From Zhongshania aliphaticivorans (GTDB lineage: Bacteria > Pseudomonadota > Gammaproteobacteria > Pseudomonadales > Spongiibacteraceae): a stretch of DNA of 64,000 nt. Positions 41,675 to 51,932 of the stretch are shown one piece after another. The notes under the pieces are model-generated. The model searched no databases and was not told where the DNA came from. It worked only from the letters and a program-made list of their open reading frames with translations. Numbering within the stretch: the first letter of the stretch is position 1; every line of letters starts with the position of its first letter. The stretch spans positions 1,333,501 through 1,397,500 of the forward strand of contig NZ_CP014544.1 of assembly GCF_001586255.1 (NCBI RefSeq), read 5' to 3'. The position numbers and the translations under genes were made by a program.

Positions 41675-41803
41675 AAGGCAATACAGGCGAGTATAAACAG
41701 CTATACGCAAAGCAATTTGCTTAGGCTTGAGTAGCACGACAAATAAAAATGAACTATGCCTTATAAATATGCGTATAGGCAGCCGAAACGAGAGGGGAAG
41801 CAA

Positions 41804-42694
41804 ATGAAAAAAGTCATGATTTGCACAGCGCTAATTGTGCTCTGTATAGCAATTGCCACCGGCTTAGCCTATGCAGGGGGGCAGGGCGGTTTAAACTATG
41901 GTCCTTATCCGGCATTGCTGGTTTGCGCCGCTATTGCCTTTAGTGTTCAGTGGCTGGCGTTCATACCTGCCTACGCTTTTCAAACTGAGCATTATTACGA
42001 CCTCATTGGCAGTAGCACCTATGTGATTATTGTCTTGTTGGCGCTGTATCTTAGCTCGGGCTTAGGGCAGGGGCTTGATGATCGCGCCCTATTGCTTACT
42101 GCGCTTGTGGTGATTTGGGCCGCACGTCTGGGGCCATTTTTGTTCAGACGAGTAAAGCAAGCCGGTAAAGACGGTCGTTTCGACTTGATTAAAGTGTCGA
42201 TTCCTCGGTTTTTACTAACCTGGACACTACAGGGCCTATGGGTGTTTGTGACGCTGGTGGCGGCGCTTACGGCCATGACAAGCCAACACCGGGAACCATT
42301 GGGAATAGTCGCTGTTTTCGGCGCACTTGTTTGGTTGCTCGGCTTTGCCCTTGAAGTTGTTGCCGATGCCCAAAAGTCGGCCTTCAACAAACAGCCAGAA
42401 AATGCCGGTAAATTTATTAATATTGGTTTGTGGCGTTGGTCTCGGCACCCCAATTATTTTGGTGAAATTATGTTGTGGTGCGGCATTGCCCTCATTGCCG
42501 TGCCGGTATTGCAGGGCTGGCAGTGGCTGAGTTTGATCTCTCCCGTGTTTGTGATTTTCTTGCTTACCCGCGTGAGTGGCGTGCCCTTGCTAGAAAAACG
42601 TTCTGATGAAAAATGGGGTGGTAATGCAGATTATGAGCGTTATAAAACTGAGACCTCTGTTTTGATTCCGCTGCCTCCAAAGCGCGGTGTTTAA
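41804..42694 (+). CDS. DUF1295 / steroid 5-alpha-reductase-like membrane protein
   Basis: This integral membrane protein of 296 residues has about seven hydrophobic segments. The C-terminal DUF1295 signature is clear: GLWRWSRHPNYFGEIMLWCG near residues 222-241 and LLEKRSDEKWGGNADYERYK near the end. This fold includes steroid reductases and isoprenylcysteine methyltransferase-like enzymes that use NADPH or SAM at the C-terminal motif. The exact reaction is not known for DUF1295. The ATG at 41804 follows GAGGGGAAG; the frame extends to 41756 without a ribosome site. A TonB receptor gene follows 53 bp downstream. Confidence 0.9.
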   Translation: MKKVMICTALIVLCIAIATGLAYAGGQGGLNYGPYPALLVCAAIAFSVQWLAFIPAYAFQTEHYYDLIGSSTYVIIVLLALYLSSGLGQGLDDRALLLTALVVIWAARLGPFLFRRVKQAGKDGRFDLIKVSIPRFLLTWTLQGLWVFVTLVAALTAMTSQHREPLGIVAVFGALVWLLGFALEVVADAQKSAFNKQPENAGKFINIGLWRWSRHPNYFGEIMLWCGIALIAVPVLQGWQWLSLISPVFVIFLLTRVSGVPLLEKRSDEKWGGNADYERYKTETSVLIPLPPKRGV

Positions 42695-42747
42695 GCCGCG
42701 CGGCATGTAGCGCTAGCCCCTACTAAAATAAGTACAATGAGGTTTTT

Positions 42748-45009
42748 ATGATAAAGCGACTAGGTATTTTTGCCCTGATGTTGGCGGCGCAAGATGTATT
42801 TGCGCGGGGCACGCCAGTGCTAGAAGAAGTCATTATTACCGCGCAAAAGCGCGAAGAAAGTCTGCAAGATGTGCCGATTTCACTGGTGGCAATTAGCGCC
42901 CAGGCGATGCAGGACGCCAATATTGACGATATGGCTGATATTGCCAATTTTACGCCCAATTTGAGTGTGTTTAGTCATCCACCGCTGACCAGCTTGCGCA
43001 TTCGCGGCTTAGGTTCACCTTTTGATAAGGGCTTTGAACAGTCTGCGGGTCTGTTTTTAGACGGCGTGTATCTTGGCCGCTTGGCCTTTTTAGACGCGGC
43101 CTTTTTAGATGTTGCCTCGGTAGAGGTGCTCCGTGGTCCCCAGGGAACACTGTTTGGCAAAAACACCATCTCCGGCGCCATTAGTATTCGCTCGGTGCAA
43201 CCCTCTCAAGAACCCGAGTTATTGGCCGAAGGGGTGACTGGTGATGAAGACCTTGCTAAATATACCCTCACCGGCAATGTGCCTTTGAGTGACACCGTGG
43301 CCCTGCGCGCCTCGGCGCTGGTAAATAAGCGTGACGGCACGGTTTACAACACTACGCTAGATCGCGACGAGGGCGGTGTTGACTCGCGGGTAGGGCGGGT
43401 GCAATTGCGCTGGGATATTGCCGACTGGCTAGATGTTACGGTGGCGGCGGCAGATACCAATCAGGAATTCAGGCTCGGTAGTTTTCAGGTTCGTACAACA
43501 ACAGATGATCAGTTTGCGCTGATGCAGTTTTATGATCCGCAAGTTGAAAAAGACACCAGTAATAATCAAAGCGCCCAAGATTATCCGGCGATGACCTACC
43601 AAAATGGCAATAAATTTGATGTTCGTTTTAACGCATCGCTGTGGGGACATGAGTTCAGCTGGATTAACGCGTTGAGTTCAATCACCGAGGAGTCTTTAAC
43701 AGACTTAGACTTTTCGCCTATTCCGCTTTTGTTTTTTCTTAATGGTGAAGACTACGAACAGCTCAGTAGTGAATTGCGTATTGTTTCGCCATTAGGCATG
43801 TTCGGTGGAAAATTAGATTACGTTGCTGGCGGCTATGTCGCGCTGAGTGAAACCACCATTAAGGTCATTATCGATGCCGCGCCAACGCCTTCAACCCTAG
43901 CCTCAGGTCTGGCTCTGACCGGTGGCGGTCTAGGTGTGCTGGATGGCTTGTTGGGCGCTGCCACCGGCAATGAACCGGGCGAGCGCTTATTAATTGATGG
44001 CTATCAAGAGAGTGTTAGCTCGGCTGTTTACGCACAGGCAAGCTGGCACTTTAACGACGAATTAAGCTTAACCGGCGGTGTGCGTGTCTCTACCGAAACC
44101 AAGGAAGTGGATCAAACCCTGCAATTATTTACAGCGGGTACGGATGTCGATGGCCCGGTATTCACCCAGCTGGTGACCGCGCAAGAATATCGCCTACTCG
44201 ACAAACGGGTAGACCGCGATGTAAGTCCTAAGCTGTCGTTAAATTGGCTGCCTGATGACGATCTGACCTTTTACCTGAGCGCTGCGCAAGGCTTTAAAAG
44301 CGGTGGCTATAGTGGTTCTGCTGTACGTGCAGAAATTGCCGAGGTCGAGCCTGAATCGTCAACGACCTACGAGGCCGGAGCCAAAACACGCTTGTTTGGC
44401 GGCGCTGCAACGCTCAATGCCGCGACCTTTTACACCGAGTTTGAAGATTTGCAGTTAACCATCTTTGAGGGCAATGTCAGCCGTATCTCAAATGCGGCGG
44501 GTGCAATCTCTAAAGGTGCGGAACTTGATGCCGCATTTGTAACCCCCTGGGACGTATCGGGTAATTTTTCGCTGGCGTATTTGGACGCCACCTTTACCGA
44601 CTACGCCAACGGCCCTTGTCCCGCAGGTGAAGACACGCCCTGTGATTTGACCGGTAAACCACTGGCTTTCGCACCGCTGTGGAAAGCCACCTTCAGTATG
44701 AATTACTTCCACGACTTGTGGTCTGCACCGGTTAATCTCTTGTTTGGTTTTGACATGTTATACGAAGACGACAAACTGCTGCAATCGGATCAAGACCCTA
44801 TTGATGTGCAAGGTGAGTTTGCAACCCTGAACCTGCGTTTACGATTAGAGGACGACAATGAACGCTGGTCATTGCAGGCCTTTATCCGCAATGCCACAGA
44901 CGAGTTTGCCTTAGACGGCGGCGGCGATATTCCGACCTTGTCGGGCGCGCATTTTGGCCGTGCGATTGCCTCGCGACAATTGGATGTGGCACTACGAATA
45001 AAATTCTAG
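42748..45009 (+). CDS. TonB-dependent outer-membrane receptor
   Basis: This outer-membrane beta-barrel of 753 residues imports a large or scarce substrate using TonB energy. A signal peptide occupies residues 1-19, followed by a TonB-box-like stretch (EEVIITAQKREESLQDVPIS). The plug domain follows (about 45-160, SLRIRGLGSPFDKGFEQSAG, VLRGPQGTLFGKNTISGAIS). The barrel runs to the terminal aromatic residue (LDVALRIKF). The REESLQDVP opening is typical of receptors common in hydrocarbon, steroid and glycoside users; the ligand is not inferable. It is upstream of and co-directional with the SUMF1-type secreted protein. Confidence 0.94.
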   Translation: MIKRLGIFALMLAAQDVFARGTPVLEEVIITAQKREESLQDVPISLVAISAQAMQDANIDDMADIANFTPNLSVFSHPPLTSLRIRGLGSPFDKGFEQSAGLFLDGVYLGRLAFLDAAFLDVASVEVLRGPQGTLFGKNTISGAISIRSVQPSQEPELLAEGVTGDEDLAKYTLTGNVPLSDTVALRASALVNKRDGTVYNTTLDRDEGGVDSRVGRVQLRWDIADWLDVTVAAADTNQEFRLGSFQVRTTTDDQFALMQFYDPQVEKDTSNNQSAQDYPAMTYQNGNKFDVRFNASLWGHEFSWINALSSITEESLTDLDFSPIPLLFFLNGEDYEQLSSELRIVSPLGMFGGKLDYVAGGYVALSETTIKVIIDAAPTPSTLASGLALTGGGLGVLDGLLGAATGNEPGERLLIDGYQESVSSAVYAQASWHFNDELSLTGGVRVSTETKEVDQTLQLFTAGTDVDGPVFTQLVTAQEYRLLDKRVDRDVSPKLSLNWLPDDDLTFYLSAAQGFKSGGYSGSAVRAEIAEVEPESSTTYEAGAKTRLFGGAATLNAATFYTEFEDLQLTIFEGNVSRISNAAGAISKGAELDAAFVTPWDVSGNFSLAYLDATFTDYANGPCPAGEDTPCDLTGKPLAFAPLWKATFSMNYFHDLWSAPVNLLFGFDMLYEDDKLLQSDQDPIDVQGEFATLNLRLRLEDDNERWSLQAFIRNATDEFALDGGGDIPTLSGAHFGRAIASRQLDVALRIKF

Positions 45010-45121: not shown

Positions 45122-46768
45122 ATGCTTTCTCGCATTTGGCTCACCGCAATGTTCTTTATGTTTGTAAGTGTCAGTCAGTTATCTGTCGCTTTGGATTCAC
45201 CATGTAATACTAGCCCAACCCAGGGCTTTGAAGCGCGTTCACTCATCGTCACTGAGGGTACTGACGCGCAGCCTCAGAATGGCTATTACCAACTCTATAT
45301 TCCCACCGAGCTTCCGTCTGGGGCAGTTCCCTTGCTTGTGATTGTCGATGACGGCGTATCTGCGCTAAGTGCTTCAGATGCAGTGCATCTTGAAAAAGCA
45401 GCAGAGGCGCGAAAGTATATTATTGCGTACCCCCAACGTCATGAGGCTTGGGATACCGGAGATAACACAGCCGACGTCGACTACATTAGAGCCGTGGTTG
45501 CCGATGTCGAGTCTAATCACTGTATTGATAAACGCCGAATATATAGCGCAGCATACGCCGGTGGCGGCGCTATGATCGCGCGTCTGGCCTGCGACGCTGC
45601 CGATATCTTTGCGGCAATAACATTGCCTGAGTCTGATTCGGTAGGGGATTATGGGCATTGTCTAGACCCCGTTGGGGCTATGGAAGAGGGCGCAACGGCT
45701 ACCCCTCTTGTTTTGAGTCTCGCGACATCGACTAGCCATGACGATGAGCCCTTGAATGCCCAGTCATTAGACTTTATGGCTGCCAATCCAAGGGCCGCTT
45801 CAGTAACGTCTTCTGGGCTCGTTGAGTTTGAATGGTTATTGGTTGGCAACCCCGGCAACGCTGCAGATATTTCCAGTGGTTTTGGCGCCGTTGACCATAG
45901 TTTTTTAATTGCAAAGTACGAAGTGACCAACGCCCAGTATGCGCAGTTCTTGAATGCCAAAGCGGTGAGTGATCCGCTCAATTTATACAATATCACCATG
46001 AGCGCGGGCGCGGGTGGCATAAGCCGTTCAGGGGTTCCTGGTAGTTACAGCTATAGCCCAATTCCTGGGCGCGAAAATAAGCCGGTTAATTGGGTGTCGT
46101 ACTACGACGTACTTCGTTTTACAAATTGGATGCACAATGGCCAAGGTGACGGCGATACCGAAACCGGCGCCTATACCTTAGAGGGCGGTTTGGCGGTTCC
46201 ATTTAATGCTGAAACCGTTCAGCGCAATGCCGACGCACGGGTGTTTTTGCCAACAGAAGATGAGTGGTATAAATCGGCCTACCACAACGCCAAAGGCCTG
46301 AAAGAAACCGATTATTTTCTATACCCATTTCGTAGCGATGAAGTAACAAGCTGCGTTCCGCCACGGGGTGGCGAGAATCACGCCAATTGCGCTCGCGCGG
46401 TAACCGATGTTGTGGACAAGGGCAGCTATCCAGAATCTATTGGCCCCTACGGCACCCTTGACCAAGGTGGCAACGTTTGGGAGTGGAATGTTGGACTGGT
46501 CGCTGGCGTGCTTCCTGTCATGCGCGGCGGCGGCTACTATATTGGGCCAGATTCACTCGCGTCCTCATGGCGAGACCAATGGGCAGCATCTGGTGAGTTC
46601 AGCTTTGCGGGCTTTCGCGTAGCTGCGCCTGCAACGGCGGATGCGCCCGCCGCAACGCCGAAGCCGGTCGCAAAATCCAGTTCTGGTGGCGGCTCATTTT
46701 CACCGCTGTTTTTGCTAATGGTATCGATACTGCTGGTGTTCAGTCGACGGACTGCTAAAACGCAGTAG
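45122..46768 (+). CDS. Secreted degenerate esterase-SUMF1 fusion with GlyGly-CTERM-like tail
   Basis: This 548-residue protein has a signal peptide (residues 1-23). An N-terminal domain (about 40-230) resembles PHB depolymerase/feruloyl esterase (LpqC-type): the block RRIYSAAYAGGGAM aligns with the nucleophile elbow RIYxTGxSxGG, but the serine is Ala146. It is therefore probably inactive. A SUMF1/formylglycine-generating-type domain (about 235-500) shows KYEVTNAQYAQFLNA, LPTEDEWYKSAYH and GGNVWEWN; I saw no paired active-site cysteines. The end (SSSGGGSFSPLFLLMVSILL and basic residues) matches the Gly-Gly / hydrophobic / Arg-Arg plan of GlyGly-CTERM, cut by rhombosortase. It follows the TonB receptor. 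Confidence 0.88.
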   Translation: MLSRIWLTAMFFMFVSVSQLSVALDSPCNTSPTQGFEARSLIVTEGTDAQPQNGYYQLYIPTELPSGAVPLLVIVDDGVSALSASDAVHLEKAAEARKYIIAYPQRHEAWDTGDNTADVDYIRAVVADVESNHCIDKRRIYSAAYAGGGAMIARLACDAADIFAAITLPESDSVGDYGHCLDPVGAMEEGATATPLVLSLATSTSHDDEPLNAQSLDFMAANPRAASVTSSGLVEFEWLLVGNPGNAADISSGFGAVDHSFLIAKYEVTNAQYAQFLNAKAVSDPLNLYNITMSAGAGGISRSGVPGSYSYSPIPGRENKPVNWVSYYDVLRFTNWMHNGQGDGDTETGAYTLEGGLAVPFNAETVQRNADARVFLPTEDEWYKSAYHNAKGLKETDYFLYPFRSDEVTSCVPPRGGENHANCARAVTDVVDKGSYPESIGPYGTLDQGGNVWEWNVGLVAGVLPVMRGGGYYIGPDSLASSWRDQWAASGEFSFAGFRVAAPATADAPAATPKPVAKSSSGGGSFSPLFLLMVSILLVFSRRTAKTQ

Positions 46769-46897: not shown

Positions 46898-47545
46898 TTA
46901 GTGCTCTGTTACATCTCTTGATTTTGGTGTAGGAATCAGGCCGATAAACCTTGCCAAGCTTAGCAATGTCATGAAAAGGCCAATCATGGCTTGCCCTATT
47001 ACTAGCGAGTAGGCGAGCACCCCTAAGGGAGTTACATTGTAATAACCAAAGCTAGTCATAACCACAAAACTTGTATATATCGCACCAAAAACACTTTCAT
47101 GCGAGCCTTCTACAGCGAAGGAGAAGAGGTCGTTAAAGAAAATATATTGGGCTGCAAACCAAAATATTATTTCAAAATAGTTTTGCATAAGAAGAACAAC
47201 CATTCTTCTATAACCGTGAAGAGCGTATTCTTTTCCAGCCTTAGTAGCTCTGTACTCGTCAAACAACAAAACATTGGTTTGGTAAACGATTACCTCAAAA
47301 ACGCGTAATAACGCATACGCAGCAATAAATAAGCCTACGTAATAGTTTTGGATATATAAAACCGCAGGCACAGACAGAATAGATAGTAGCAAATGGCCAA
47401 GAGCCCACGCTTCGGAAAATAAGCCTGTTTTGGTGCTAGGGAATAGCACCCTTACAAGGTTGAAGAATGAAATTTCCCCCAATACCTTGAAAATAAAAGC
47501 CCAGAAATCAAGGATAAATGTTTTTTGTTTTTCCGAATTTTTCAT
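46898..47545 (-). CDS. Ion-channel-like membrane protein
   Basis: This membrane protein of 215 residues has about four hydrophobic segments (residues 50-68, 72-92, 118-138 and 178-205). Between the last two is a pore-loop-like region ending TSFGYYNVTP (near residues 164-173). It resembles the potassium-channel filter TxGYG but is changed, so selectivity may differ. There is no cytoplasmic ligand or TrkA domain. The gene is AT-richer than its neighbours and followed upstream by an AT-rich gap, which suggests acquired DNA. The ATG at 47545 is preferred over the GTG at 47551; the ribosome site is weak. Its role is not known. Confidence 0.72.
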   Translation of the reverse strand: MKNSEKQKTFILDFWAFIFKVLGEISFFNLVRVLFPSTKTGLFSEAWALGHLLLSILSVPAVLYIQNYYVGLFIAAYALLRVFEVIVYQTNVLLFDEYRATKAGKEYALHGYRRMVVLLMQNYFEIIFWFAAQYIFFNDLFSFAVEGSHESVFGAIYTSFVVMTSFGYYNVTPLGVLAYSLVIGQAMIGLFMTLLSLARFIGLIPTPKSRDVTEH

Positions 47546-48249
47546 GATCACATCAGTTCTTATAGCGCATTAAATAAGGGCGCACTTTAGTGCGCTTGGC
47601 CACAGGGTATTGTTGGTTTAACTTGTTACGCATGACTATTGTTTTATTCCTGATCGGTGTTTTTTTGAGCGCGATAATATTTACCTATCCCTGCGACCCG
47701 ATGATATGCATCAGTCGCATCGTTCTCTTTTTTACGATAAGGGTATGTAACGATGTAGTAACTGGAAAAAAATACTAAGATAGAGAGCAGTCAATTCTCC
47801 CATTTCATATGAGCTGACAATGCAGTCAGTCCCGACAGACACCAACCCAGATTTTCAGCCACACCAAGTTTTTGTAGTTCAATTTCTGCATTTTTCTCTA
47901 GTTCTTCTATTAGCGTCATATATTGCCTACATTTATTACCTAATAGCTAGTCCTTGAGACTCGTGATTCCCATCATTTTGTCCCTTAGCAACATTGGGGC
48001 GTCAGCATGAATTAAAAAATATTAGCAGGTTCAAAAGAGAAGGGGGCTTCGCTATTCGAAAGCGCCAGACAAGTGAAGATTTTCCCTGTGCTTCTGTTAA
48101 ACATTCCCTTCCCCTCGATCATATCGCGTTTTCTATAAATTTCAATGCGTTAGAAGAGCCGTTTAGTCGTTAAAAGGAAAGAAGCTATTGTTCACGAACC
48201 TTGAGGACTGGGGTGTAGTAAATATTGGGGGGCATTGGTTTGTAGAGAG
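47546..48249. other. AT-rich gene-poor gap
   Basis: Between the channel-like gene and the terminator of the lipoprotein gene there is no convincing gene. A 48-codon plus-strand frame from the ATG at 47632 (MTIVLFLIGVFLSAIIFTYP and on) could encode a small membrane protein but has no ribosome site and no known family. Base composition is AT-richer than the rest of the window, consistent with an old insertion or eroded genes. No insertion-sequence ends, tRNA or direct repeats were seen. Confidence 0.5.
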
Positions 48250-48365: not shown

Positions 48366-51300
48366 CTAGAAGGGCAGTGGCAGCGGATTGCCTCCGCCAT
48401 CCGCACAATTGGCGTTTTCATAACGGCTATCAATCACGGTATTTATCCAGGCATCGATGACATCTACGGCCTCGCCGTGTTTTACGCTGCGGGCGATAGG
48501 TGGCATTTGCACTGAGGTGTCTACCGAGTGCAGTCGGTAAGAGAGAATTGAGCCCTCTGAGCCGCTTGCGCCACCGGCGACACCGGGCAGTATGTCGTAG
48601 TCGCGTCCGCCGCCAGAGCTACCTGCGGTGATGGGTTCTTTGCACACGCCGTGGCTGAGGTTGACCTTGCGGAACACGTCAAAATACAAGCCGGTGCTTT
48701 GAGCTAAACCTTTGCGGTTGTGGCAGTGGGCGCAGTTGGTTTCTAGCCAGGCGCGGGCGCGGTATTCAAGATTGGCGTCGCTGCTGGCGGCCACGCGATC
48801 AGGCTCAGCGGTGGTGATTTTGTAACTGTCGCCGGGCACGTTAAAGCGCGGCAGGCGGCTGACATTGGTCGCGACCTGTTTATTGTCTAGCGTTAGATTT
48901 GGGGCGCCGCTGAGCTTGCCCATATCAATGAGGTGCTGCAATTGGTTTTCTGGGCCGTTGCCATAGTCAAAGGCGCGGTTCATATTGCGTACTTTGGGGC
49001 CGATTGGCGCATCACCGGCTTGGCGGTCTTCATTGTTGTGGCAGTTGCCACATTGGTTTGGGGTGGGAATGGCATAGCGATTGGTGCTGCCCTTGTAGGT
49101 GGCGCTCACATCGGGGTCGGCGTCGTCGAAGTCCCAGCTTACGGCTTTGGAGCCACCGGCTAGGGCAATGTCAGCGTCACTGCCATCTGCGCGCCAAACA
49201 TAGGCCATGCCTTCCCAGAATGAACTGCCGCCTTGACCTGCGCGGTGAATGAGTAGACGTGTTTCTACCACGTTTTCGTCAGCAGCGTTGCGGTCGCGAA
49301 AGGCGAAGGTTTTGGCGATAACGGTGCCCACGGGGAAGTCTAGCGTCGCGTTTGGCGAGCTGATATTACCCTCTACCCAGCTGGCTGATTCGTCCGGTGG
49401 CAAAAATAACACCCGGTATTTTACCGCGTAGTCTGAGAACAAGGGCGTGACCAAGTCGTAAAGTACACCGTCTTCGTTAAAGCCACTGCGGGGATCCGTT
49501 TGATCGGCGAATAAATTGTAATGCGACAATTTACTGCAGTTGTAGGCCAGCGCTTCGCGGTTAATCTCGCTGCCGGATGCGCTTTCACAAATAGCGGCAA
49601 TTTCTGCGGCTGAGGGCGGTTGTTCGGCGCTGCTGCCGGGAATATAGGGCTGCACAACAGCGGGGTTTAAGCGCGCTAATTGTCTGCCAAACTTTGTTGG
49701 GCAGTCGTGGTCGGCCAAATCGGTTTTGGGCGCGGTGTCGAGCTCCATGCCGTCAAAGTTCATGAAGGTGCGGCTGTCTGAGGAAAAGGTGTTGCCGAAC
49801 TCGTCACTTTGGTCAATACACAGCCAGTAATCGGGATGTTTACGCTTGGGGTCGCTGGCGTTGTCTGGCTCGGCAAATTTGTAGCGGTTGTAGCGGCAGC
49901 TGGGTTGGCTCTGGCCGTTGTAGTCGGGTTTGCCATCGGCATCCAGTGGCGCGCCGTCGACGTCGTTGCACTGCACGCCATCTTTGCTGTTGACGGTTTT
50001 GTCGTAGTAGCCATCCCAAACAATATGGGCGCCCTGGGCGACGTAGGGGTCTTGCGCTTGCAAGCTGCGAAGCTGCACGAGTACTGGCAGCAGGGAGTCG
50101 TGGCCGTCATCTATGCCCACGGGAATACAGGGCAGGCCGGTGTTGCCGCCAGTGCCGTCTTGGCAAATGAGCACGCCTTCTTCGGGTAATTGCGGCAGGG
50201 TGCCGTTGGTGGTGAATATATTGCTGTGGATATGGATACCTTCAGGGTAGAGGTCCATACGTTTATCTGAGTTATTGGTGTTGCCGTCTAACAGCTCATG
50301 GCTGGCGCCGACATAACCCAAGGTGCGGTTGAACTCGACGACATTATTAAAGAATTCAACTTTGTCATAACCCAGCTGCAGCAAGCCGGTACCCTGAGGC
50401 ACCGCGCTGACCACGCCACCGGGGGCAAAGTTGGCGAGGTTGTTGTAGCCCGCGTAGTTATTAAAAATTCGAGTCTGTTCGCCGTATTGGTTGAGGCCGG
50501 GTAAATCAAAAACCAAGAAACCGGCGGTATTACAGTGGGCAACGTTGTCGTGCATATCGGCGCGGTCGCTGTTTTCAATTTCATAGCCCGCTACGTTAAA
50601 CAGGGCTTCGCTGTTTTTGACGATGATGTCGTTGGACTGGCCAACATAGATACCGGCGTCGGAGGCGCCCAGCGACACCACATTGTCGAGCAAGACATTA
50701 TTAGACAGCACAGGGTAAATGGCGTAGCCGCCATTGGAGCTGTCTATGGTGTAGTTGCGGGTTTGGCCGCTGGCGTCGGTGTACAGGCCGGTGGCAAGGG
50801 GAAAGGCGATAGGTAAGCCATTCAGGCGCGGAGCGGGCACATTGGCTGGGCGCGCAAAGCTGTCTGGCCAAGGGTGTTCGCAGGTCACTTCTAAGCTTGC
50901 GGGCACTTTGGGGTCCATGCCGCCGCGATTGTCGCCGCCGCTAGACCACATGGCGCGTAAATTACGCAAGGTGACAAAATCAGAATGAGAAACCTTTACC
51001 GAGAAGCCGGGGGTGTCGAGCACGGTAAGGTCTTCTATGGTGATCCCCGTCATGTGGCTCATGGAGATGCCTTCGGGGGATTTTGATTGGGCAAAGTCAA
51101 AAATGGTTTTGGCCATGCCCTGACCTTTAATGGTAATTCCTTGTTTATGCGCCATGTCCAGGGTGGTAGTGAACTCAAAAACCCCGTCGCTAAATTCAAT
51201 GGTATCGCCAGCTTTAGCGGCAAATAAGGCCGTGAGGGTATCGACCTGCTCTTGGGTTTGATCTTCGTTAGGCGCTGGGGCAGGGTTGTTGTTGTCGGCG

Positions 51301-51932
51301 ATATACCAAATATCGCAGTCGCCATCGAAGCGGCCATCGCTAATGTCTTGGCTGCTGCAGGCCAGTTCAATTTCAGCGATGCGCCGTGGAATAAGGGCGC
51401 GGGTGTCGCCGTTGGCGGTGCGGGCAAAATCGGCCAGTTGCGAGGCGTCAAACTCGCCGTCGTTAAGGTCGAAGGCACTGGCCGGGATGGTCAGGCTGGC
51501 TGCCGCGTCGCGCACGGTTGCCGAGATTTGAATGCCGTTGTCTGCGTTTTTGTCTTCATCTAGGGTGAGCAAAAAGCGCGACAGATTGATTGCCGCTTGC
51601 TCGTTGGCTTGAATTTGTCTGGGGGTAATGAATTCAGCGGCGGTGGCTTGGCCTAGGTTAATACCACCGATGGCAAATTTAACAATATCACCGCTAAAGT
51701 ACTTAAACTCGCCATTGCCACTGGTGAGTAAAATACTGCTTTTGCCCTGGATGCTGTAGTGGGCACCGCCAATGGGGCCGTCGATGAAATAACCACTTAG
51801 CTCGCTTGGCGGCGGTGGCGTGGTATTGCCGCCAGACCCTGCGGGGGCCGAGGAAGAATTGCTATTACCGCAAGACGCGAGCATCGAGCAAAGTACGCTG
51901 GCAAGCAAATACGAGGGAAAAGTGTATTTCAC
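48366..51932 (-). CDS. Lipoprotein fusing a parallel beta-helix to a diheme cytochrome c domain
   Basis: This 1188-residue envelope lipoprotein has its lipobox cysteine at Cys21 (MLASC), then a Ser/Gly/Pro-rich linker. A small domain (about 45-240) is followed by a right-handed parallel beta-helix (about 245-620, NNVLLDNVVSLGASDAGIYV, DIIVKNSEALFNVAGYEIEN). The C-terminal part (about 780-1188) has two c-type heme motifs, CGNCH at 961 and CAHCH at 1067, and a possible axial Met in VQMPPI. It matches the family pair TIGR03805 (beta-helix) and TIGR03806 (SO2930-type cytochrome), usually adjacent genes. Function of the pair is unknown. Periplasmic or surface redox use is likely from the heme sites. 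Confidence 0.9.
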   Translation of the reverse strand: MKYTFPSYLLASVLCSMLASCGNSNSSSAPAGSGGNTTPPPPSELSGYFIDGPIGGAHYSIQGKSSILLTSGNGEFKYFSGDIVKFAIGGINLGQATAAEFITPRQIQANEQAAINLSRFLLTLDEDKNADNGIQISATVRDAAASLTIPASAFDLNDGEFDASQLADFARTANGDTRALIPRRIAEIELACSSQDISDGRFDGDCDIWYIADNNNPAPAPNEDQTQEQVDTLTALFAAKAGDTIEFSDGVFEFTTTLDMAHKQGITIKGQGMAKTIFDFAQSKSPEGISMSHMTGITIEDLTVLDTPGFSVKVSHSDFVTLRNLRAMWSSGGDNRGGMDPKVPASLEVTCEHPWPDSFARPANVPAPRLNGLPIAFPLATGLYTDASGQTRNYTIDSSNGGYAIYPVLSNNVLLDNVVSLGASDAGIYVGQSNDIIVKNSEALFNVAGYEIENSDRADMHDNVAHCNTAGFLVFDLPGLNQYGEQTRIFNNYAGYNNLANFAPGGVVSAVPQGTGLLQLGYDKVEFFNNVVEFNRTLGYVGASHELLDGNTNNSDKRMDLYPEGIHIHSNIFTTNGTLPQLPEEGVLICQDGTGGNTGLPCIPVGIDDGHDSLLPVLVQLRSLQAQDPYVAQGAHIVWDGYYDKTVNSKDGVQCNDVDGAPLDADGKPDYNGQSQPSCRYNRYKFAEPDNASDPKRKHPDYWLCIDQSDEFGNTFSSDSRTFMNFDGMELDTAPKTDLADHDCPTKFGRQLARLNPAVVQPYIPGSSAEQPPSAAEIAAICESASGSEINREALAYNCSKLSHYNLFADQTDPRSGFNEDGVLYDLVTPLFSDYAVKYRVLFLPPDESASWVEGNISSPNATLDFPVGTVIAKTFAFRDRNAADENVVETRLLIHRAGQGGSSFWEGMAYVWRADGSDADIALAGGSKAVSWDFDDADPDVSATYKGSTNRYAIPTPNQCGNCHNNEDRQAGDAPIGPKVRNMNRAFDYGNGPENQLQHLIDMGKLSGAPNLTLDNKQVATNVSRLPRFNVPGDSYKITTAEPDRVAASSDANLEYRARAWLETNCAHCHNRKGLAQSTGLYFDVFRKVNLSHGVCKEPITAGSSGGGRDYDILPGVAGGASGSEGSILSYRLHSVDTSVQMPPIARSVKHGEAVDVIDAWINTVIDSRYENANCADGGGNPLPLPF

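Follow-up and report, generated by a model that had tools for sequence, protein, structure and literature searches.

A protein of Zhongshania combining an esterase-like half without catalytic residues, a SUMF1 domain and a GlyGly-CTERM-like tail

The closest described systems are the GlyGly-CTERM proteins and the rhombosortases with which they are paired. Haft et al. described the rhombosortase motifs WRxxS/T, SGMLH and AHxxGxxxG, admitted lower-scoring GlyGly-CTERM tails on the basis of architecture and extended homology, and noted for other families that sorting tags are exchanged among anchoring systems (PMC3237569). In Vibrio cholerae, surface delivery of VesB requires the GlyGly-CTERM, rhombosortase and the type II secretion system (T2SS), and the glycine exposed in VesB receives a group that contains glycerophosphoethanolamine (PMC6219818). 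In the same organism, a GlyGly-CTERM and its processing by rhombosortase are enough for membrane association, crossing of the outer membrane needing a further signal (PMC13393428).

Here we describe a gene from a 64,000-nucleotide stretch of the Zhongshania aliphaticivorans genome (contig NZ_CP014544.1, positions 1,333,501 to 1,397,500), which is the window referred to throughout. The gene, for which the original prediction had both position and strand right (45122-46768, plus strand), is an open reading frame with an ATG start that encodes 548 amino acids (aa). From the N- to the C-terminus the protein consists of a probable signal peptide, an esterase half, a SUMF1 half, an Ala/Pro linker and a GlyGly-type tail (Table 1), and it shares 92% identity with the ortholog from Z. 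antarctica DSM 25701. With moderate confidence, we take the protein to be secreted and probably on display at the cell envelope, with a role in binding or scaffolding instead of catalysis.

Table 1. Features of the fusion gene and the adjoining receptor gene, in window positions.
Feature	Position	Strand	Basis
Probable Sec signal peptide, aa 1-23 (MLSRIWLTAMFFMFVSVSQLSVA)	45122..45190	+	Inspection by eye: N-terminal Arg, hydrophobic core, S-V-A ahead of L24-D25
LpqC/PHB-depolymerase-like alpha/beta-hydrolase half, about aa 25-225, C-terminally shortened, dead	45194..45796	+	NF050058, PF10503, 8daj, own-family HMM, AlphaFold
Degenerate oxyanion position, D76-D77 replacing His-Gly	45347..45352	+	Family alignment
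Degenerate nucleophile elbow A143-A-Y-A146-G-G, Ala146 replacing the catalytic Ser	45548..45565	+	Alignments
SUMF1/FGE-like (C-type-lectin-like) domain, about aa 230-502	45809..46627	+	PF03781, relatives, AlphaFold, Foldseek
Ala/Pro-rich linker, aa 503-518	46628..46675	+	Sequence; pLDDT below 50 at aa 509-525
GlyGly-CTERM-like tail: SSSGGGS, hydrophobic helix, RR, aa 519-548	46676..46765	+	TIGR03501, model, tail alignment
TonB-dependent receptor, immediately upstream, outside the fusion	42748..45009	+	Open reading frame and profile match; orthologs elsewhere without the fusion

The esterase half and its active site

The esterase half has the alpha/beta-hydrolase sequence and fold of the LpqC/PHB depolymerases, and its descent from this family is indicated by profile matches and modelling alike. 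NF050058 matched aa 50-195 with 64.8 bits, corresponding to profile positions 4-161 of 276, and the score with PF10503 was 21.3 bits, slightly below the cut-off of 23 bits. The top PDB sequence match was the PHB depolymerase 8daj (phmmer E 1.4e-8), and an HMM built from 11 full-length esterase relatives matched with an E-value of 3e-28, the match being restricted to aa 56-167. In the full-length AlphaFold model the esterase half is uninterpretable, with a pLDDT below 50. A joint alignment of the relatives of both halves put the esterases onto the SUMF1 domain, so the two halves were modelled separately. When modelled alone, the esterase half reached a pTM of 0.78 and could be overlaid on 8daj (VIA; Z 18.5, rmsd 3.0, 180 residues aligned), an overlay that runs as far as the final helix of 8daj, a part in which the model is of low confidence.

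The sequence AAYAGG (A143-A-Y-A146-G-G) stands where the relatives have a GxSxGG elbow; it aligns with G-L-S-A-G-G of 8daj and, among LpqC-type relatives, with GxSNGG, which identifies Ala146 as the residue at the nucleophile position. This position is occupied by Val in the Z. antarctica ortholog and by Ser in 10 of the 11 esterase relatives. The elbow aligns free of gaps and carries no Ser, ruling out a triad Ser at a shifted position. In the family alignment, D76-D77 takes the place of the oxyanion His-Gly; the pairwise comparison with 8daj is off by one residue in register, pairing the His with D77 and retaining the Gly, so that the His is lost in both registers. Moreover, the C-terminal third, which in the relatives holds the loops with the triad Asp and His (eD..vP and GGHxWPG), was undetectable, the family HMM stopping at aa 167 and the alignment of aa 186-230 with the His region of esterases being no better than that of shuffled copies (p = 0.52). 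The structural overlay had offered H206, together with the last helix, as a relic of the catalytic His, a candidate that was dismissed for want of sequence support. The loss of esterase catalysis is well supported by three independent features, namely the Ser position, the oxyanion His-Gly and the undetected C-terminal third. The replacement of Ser by Ala146 in the AAYAGG elbow, the change of HG to DD and the loss of the triad had all been proposed from the sequence of the window and are borne out by these comparisons with 8daj and LpqC-type enzymes; that the esterase half is shortened as well had been missed.

The one relative with Asp at the nucleophile position (L098:1066-2016, minus strand, with the motif GFDNGG) is another possible pseudo-esterase.

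The SUMF1 half and its relatives

PF03781 matched aa 257-501 with 76.1 bits against a cut-off of 23.3, which assigns this half to the SUMF1/FGE-sulfatase fold that had been predicted to follow the esterase, and the AlphaFold pLDDT is mostly above 90 across aa 231-500. The top Foldseek matches were TvpA (2y3c) and formylglycine-generating enzymes, and the top PDB sequence match was EgtB. The FGE fold also houses the enzymes EgtB and PvdO. Given these enzymes, it is possible that the SUMF1 half has some other activity. More specifically, the high-confidence FGE-sulfatase fold and the match with EgtB could be taken to mean that this half is still an enzyme, either formylglycine-generating or an oxidase of the PvdO/EgtB type, with the dead esterase positioning its substrate. 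However, the Cys pair of the FGE active site near the C-terminus is absent: the protein has six cysteines, but C411 and C423 are the only ones in the SUMF1 half, both precede the GNVWEW motif, and no Cys follows it. The FGE cysteines are likewise absent in all 22 close relatives for which the C-terminal segment was compared. In addition, there is no iron motif of the HxxxHxE type among its histidines, and those positions that vary least in the family (Gly, Tyr, Trp and Asn) look structural. We therefore consider a catalytic SUMF1 half of this kind very improbable.

The closest relatives of the SUMF1 half, mostly 37-54% identical over aa 230-502, belong to Planctomycetota, Verrucomicrobiota, Myxococcota and other groups. 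At least 51 of the 85 relatives carry PEP-CTERM-like tails of the exosortase type, a count that is based on patterns and in which some open reading frames are cut by contig ends. An esterase half was found in none of the 78 loci of SUMF1 relatives that were scanned; the best match to it among the open reading frames of these loci had an E-value of 0.0019 and lies in a separate reading frame of L081, distant from the SUMF1 genes. No second SUMF1 protein was found in the Zhongshania genome.

The sorting tail and rhombosortase

The protein ends in the tail KSSSGGGSFSPLFLLMVSILLVFSRRTAKTQ, which Z. antarctica keeps as SSSGGGSFSPLFLLMVLLLLVFGRR. It has the tripartite form of a Gly/Ser motif, a helix (aa 528-541 in the model) and a basic cluster, it is the best match to TIGR03501 in the genome, and it aligns with the GlyGly tails of other Zhongshania genomes. 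Its TIGR03501 score was 13.6 bits in isolation and 12.5 bits in the genome scan, both below the 15.5-bit cut-off, and we regard it from its sequence as a GlyGly-CTERM candidate, not as a certified member. The genome encodes a rhombosortase (G000:C1:1808490-1808927) that scored 124.8 bits with TIGR03902, well over the cut-off of 84 bits, and 122.3 bits when the protein was searched. Its motifs WRLIT, SAVLH (with the His at +4) and SHWWGFVSG are intact and match those described by Haft et al. The gene for the fusion protein does not adjoin that of the rhombosortase. Canonical GlyGly-CTERM proteins are encoded upstream of the rhombosortase gene in Z. antarctica (L159:5548-8667, minus strand), away from it in the same species (L161) and beside the rhombosortase gene in a further genome (L160 in G020). 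The genome also encodes the type II secretin GspD (555.8 bits), while it gave no match to the exosortase profile PF09721, and the tail lacks a PEP motif, so the protein does not qualify as an exosortase substrate.

Other domains accompany the tails of the two Z. antarctica proteins. The one encoded at L159:5548-8667 contains an S15-type peptidase/alpha-beta hydrolase, TSP3 and PKD domains and has no counterpart beside the rhombosortase gene in the genome of the window, and that at L161:2780-4312 (plus strand) has a lysyl-oxidase-like domain (PF01186, 31.2 bits).

Under the reading that we favour, the signal peptide would direct the protein into the periplasm, and the GlyGly-type tail would keep it in the inner membrane until rhombosortase cleaves at SSSGGGS. 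The new C-terminus would then acquire a lipid-like anchor, by analogy with VesB, and the type II secretion system may move the protein on to the surface. Binding or scaffolding would be the task of two modules, the dead esterase half and a SUMF1 half with a fold like that of ligand-binding C-type-lectin-like domains. Since the tail and its processing suffice in V. cholerae for membrane association and not for crossing of the outer membrane, anchoring is likely by this analogy and surface exposure, which depends on a secretion signal that sequence does not reveal, less certain. The original prediction had described a tail with SSSGGGS, a hydrophobic stretch and RR, which is indeed present and conserved in Z. 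antarctica, and had made its sorting dependent on a rhombosortase, which the genome does have. It was right about the form of the tail, whereas the score stays under the threshold of the GlyGly-CTERM model. Likewise, a surface protein that binds rather than catalyzes had been suggested; the loss of esterase catalysis agrees with this suggestion, and binding is a reasonable inference.

Evolution, neighbourhood and comparison with known systems

The full fusion protein was found in 2 of the 390 genomes of the order, both of the genus Zhongshania. A single scan of genome contigs used mostly SUMF1 patterns, and the genome search with the esterase half covered 369 genomes of the class, so that an equivalent fusion may exist elsewhere. 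On plasmids, the esterase half gave a single weak match, to a PHB esterase of Roseateles without the fusion. Between the window genome and Z. antarctica, dN/dS was 0.24 for the esterase half, 0.09 for the SUMF1 half and 0.50 for the tail, values that come from one species pair and of which that for the tail, with few sites, is weak. The esterase half has 12 nonsynonymous and 15 synonymous changes, nonsynonymous sites being three times as many. Judged from these substitutions, both halves appear to be maintained, the esterase half less strictly.

The main rival to a binding or scaffold function treats the esterase half as a relic that is tolerated: part of an esterase gene would have been joined upstream of a SUMF1 gene in a recent, non-adaptive fusion and kept as a passive extension. 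The restriction to two genomes, the 78 SUMF1 loci free of an esterase half, the shortening of this half with its active-site position drifting between Ala and Val, and a dN/dS above that of the neighbouring TonB receptor (0.018) would all fit such a history. Against it speak a reading frame that is open in both species, nonsynonymous changes well below expectation and the compact fold predicted for the esterase half, and we regard it as rather unlikely.

From the tails of its relatives, the SUMF1 lineage of the fusion seems to have changed its sorting tag from exosortase to rhombosortase. Taken together with the pseudo-esterase, this could tentatively make the protein a novel kind of Zhongshania surface receptor, lipid-anchored and without catalysis, a proposal that we hold to be possible rather than probable. 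Between the two species, dS is 0.13 for the esterase half but 0.47 for the SUMF1 half (45821-46640 compared with L125), and this jump may reflect local recombination with a divergent copy. Base composition gave no signal of horizontal transfer (GC 0.526, compared with 0.517 for the window).

The gene for the TonB-dependent receptor lies 112 bp upstream on the same strand, an arrangement that is kept in both species, and the gap between the genes has no convincing terminator in a promoter and terminator scan that performed no better than on shuffled sequences. This closeness is what could make the fusion protein a partner of the receptor, capturing the same ligand for uptake, and a shared ligand had been proposed from the outset. 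Nevertheless, six further genomes have orthologs of the receptor (71-87% identity) without the fusion, and in the five of them whose neighbourhoods were read a DUF1295 gene precedes the receptor gene while differing, unrelated genes follow it. The two genes also evolve at strongly different rates, the receptor being 99.5% identical between the two species. The idea of a shared ligand thus finds weak support at best, the fusion following the conserved DUF1295 and TonB genes in only two close species, and we consider a partnership quite unlikely.

The pair formed by DUF1295 (steroid-reductase-like) and the TonB receptor (41756-45009, plus strand) is shared by Zhongshania and a sister genus as a conserved unit. 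The stretch from the fusion gene to the next conserved gene is unmatched in Z. antarctica, suggesting an insertion specific to the strain or species. Downstream of the fusion, a 217-aa ion-channel-like gene (46898-47551, minus strand; PF07885, 18.0 bits, below the cut-off) has a GC content of 0.39 against 0.517 for the window, and a gene at 48366-51932 (minus strand) encodes a protein of 1188 aa with a beta-helix region, weak cytochrome c matches and CxxCH motifs near its C-terminus.

Each component of the fusion protein is known, and it is their combination that is rare, an esterase relic, SUMF1 and a GlyGly-type tail occurring together nowhere else in the searches made. If the proposed history is true, tags can be swapped within a single domain family between unrelated anchoring machines, here from exosortase to rhombosortase, and a pseudoenzyme is found among the rhombosortase substrates; the impact would be modest. 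With the LpqC/PHB depolymerase esterases (NF050058, TIGR01840, PF10503; 8daj) the protein shares the N-terminal two thirds of the fold, including the strand-elbow-helix arrangement, at 20-27% identity, and it differs from their active members by the change of Ser to Ala or Val and of HG to DD, the undetected C-terminal third and the fused SUMF1 domain. With the PEP-CTERM-tagged SUMF1 proteins it shares the GNVWEW...RGG...GFRVA frame, whereas these have an exosortase-type tail and no esterase half. TvpA, the top structural match of the SUMF1 half, is a DGR variable protein, but here the differences between the orthologs are ordinary transitions, not adenine-specific, and a template-like copy is absent within the window. 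Finally, the tripartite SGGGS-helix-basic tail, the rhombosortase and the T2SS secretin are shared with the GlyGly-CTERM/rhombosortase systems (TIGR03501/TIGR03902; VesB), whose known members in V. cholerae are for the most part hydrolases (PMC13393428), whereas the Zhongshania protein is predicted to be non-catalytic and has a tail that scores below the model cut-off.
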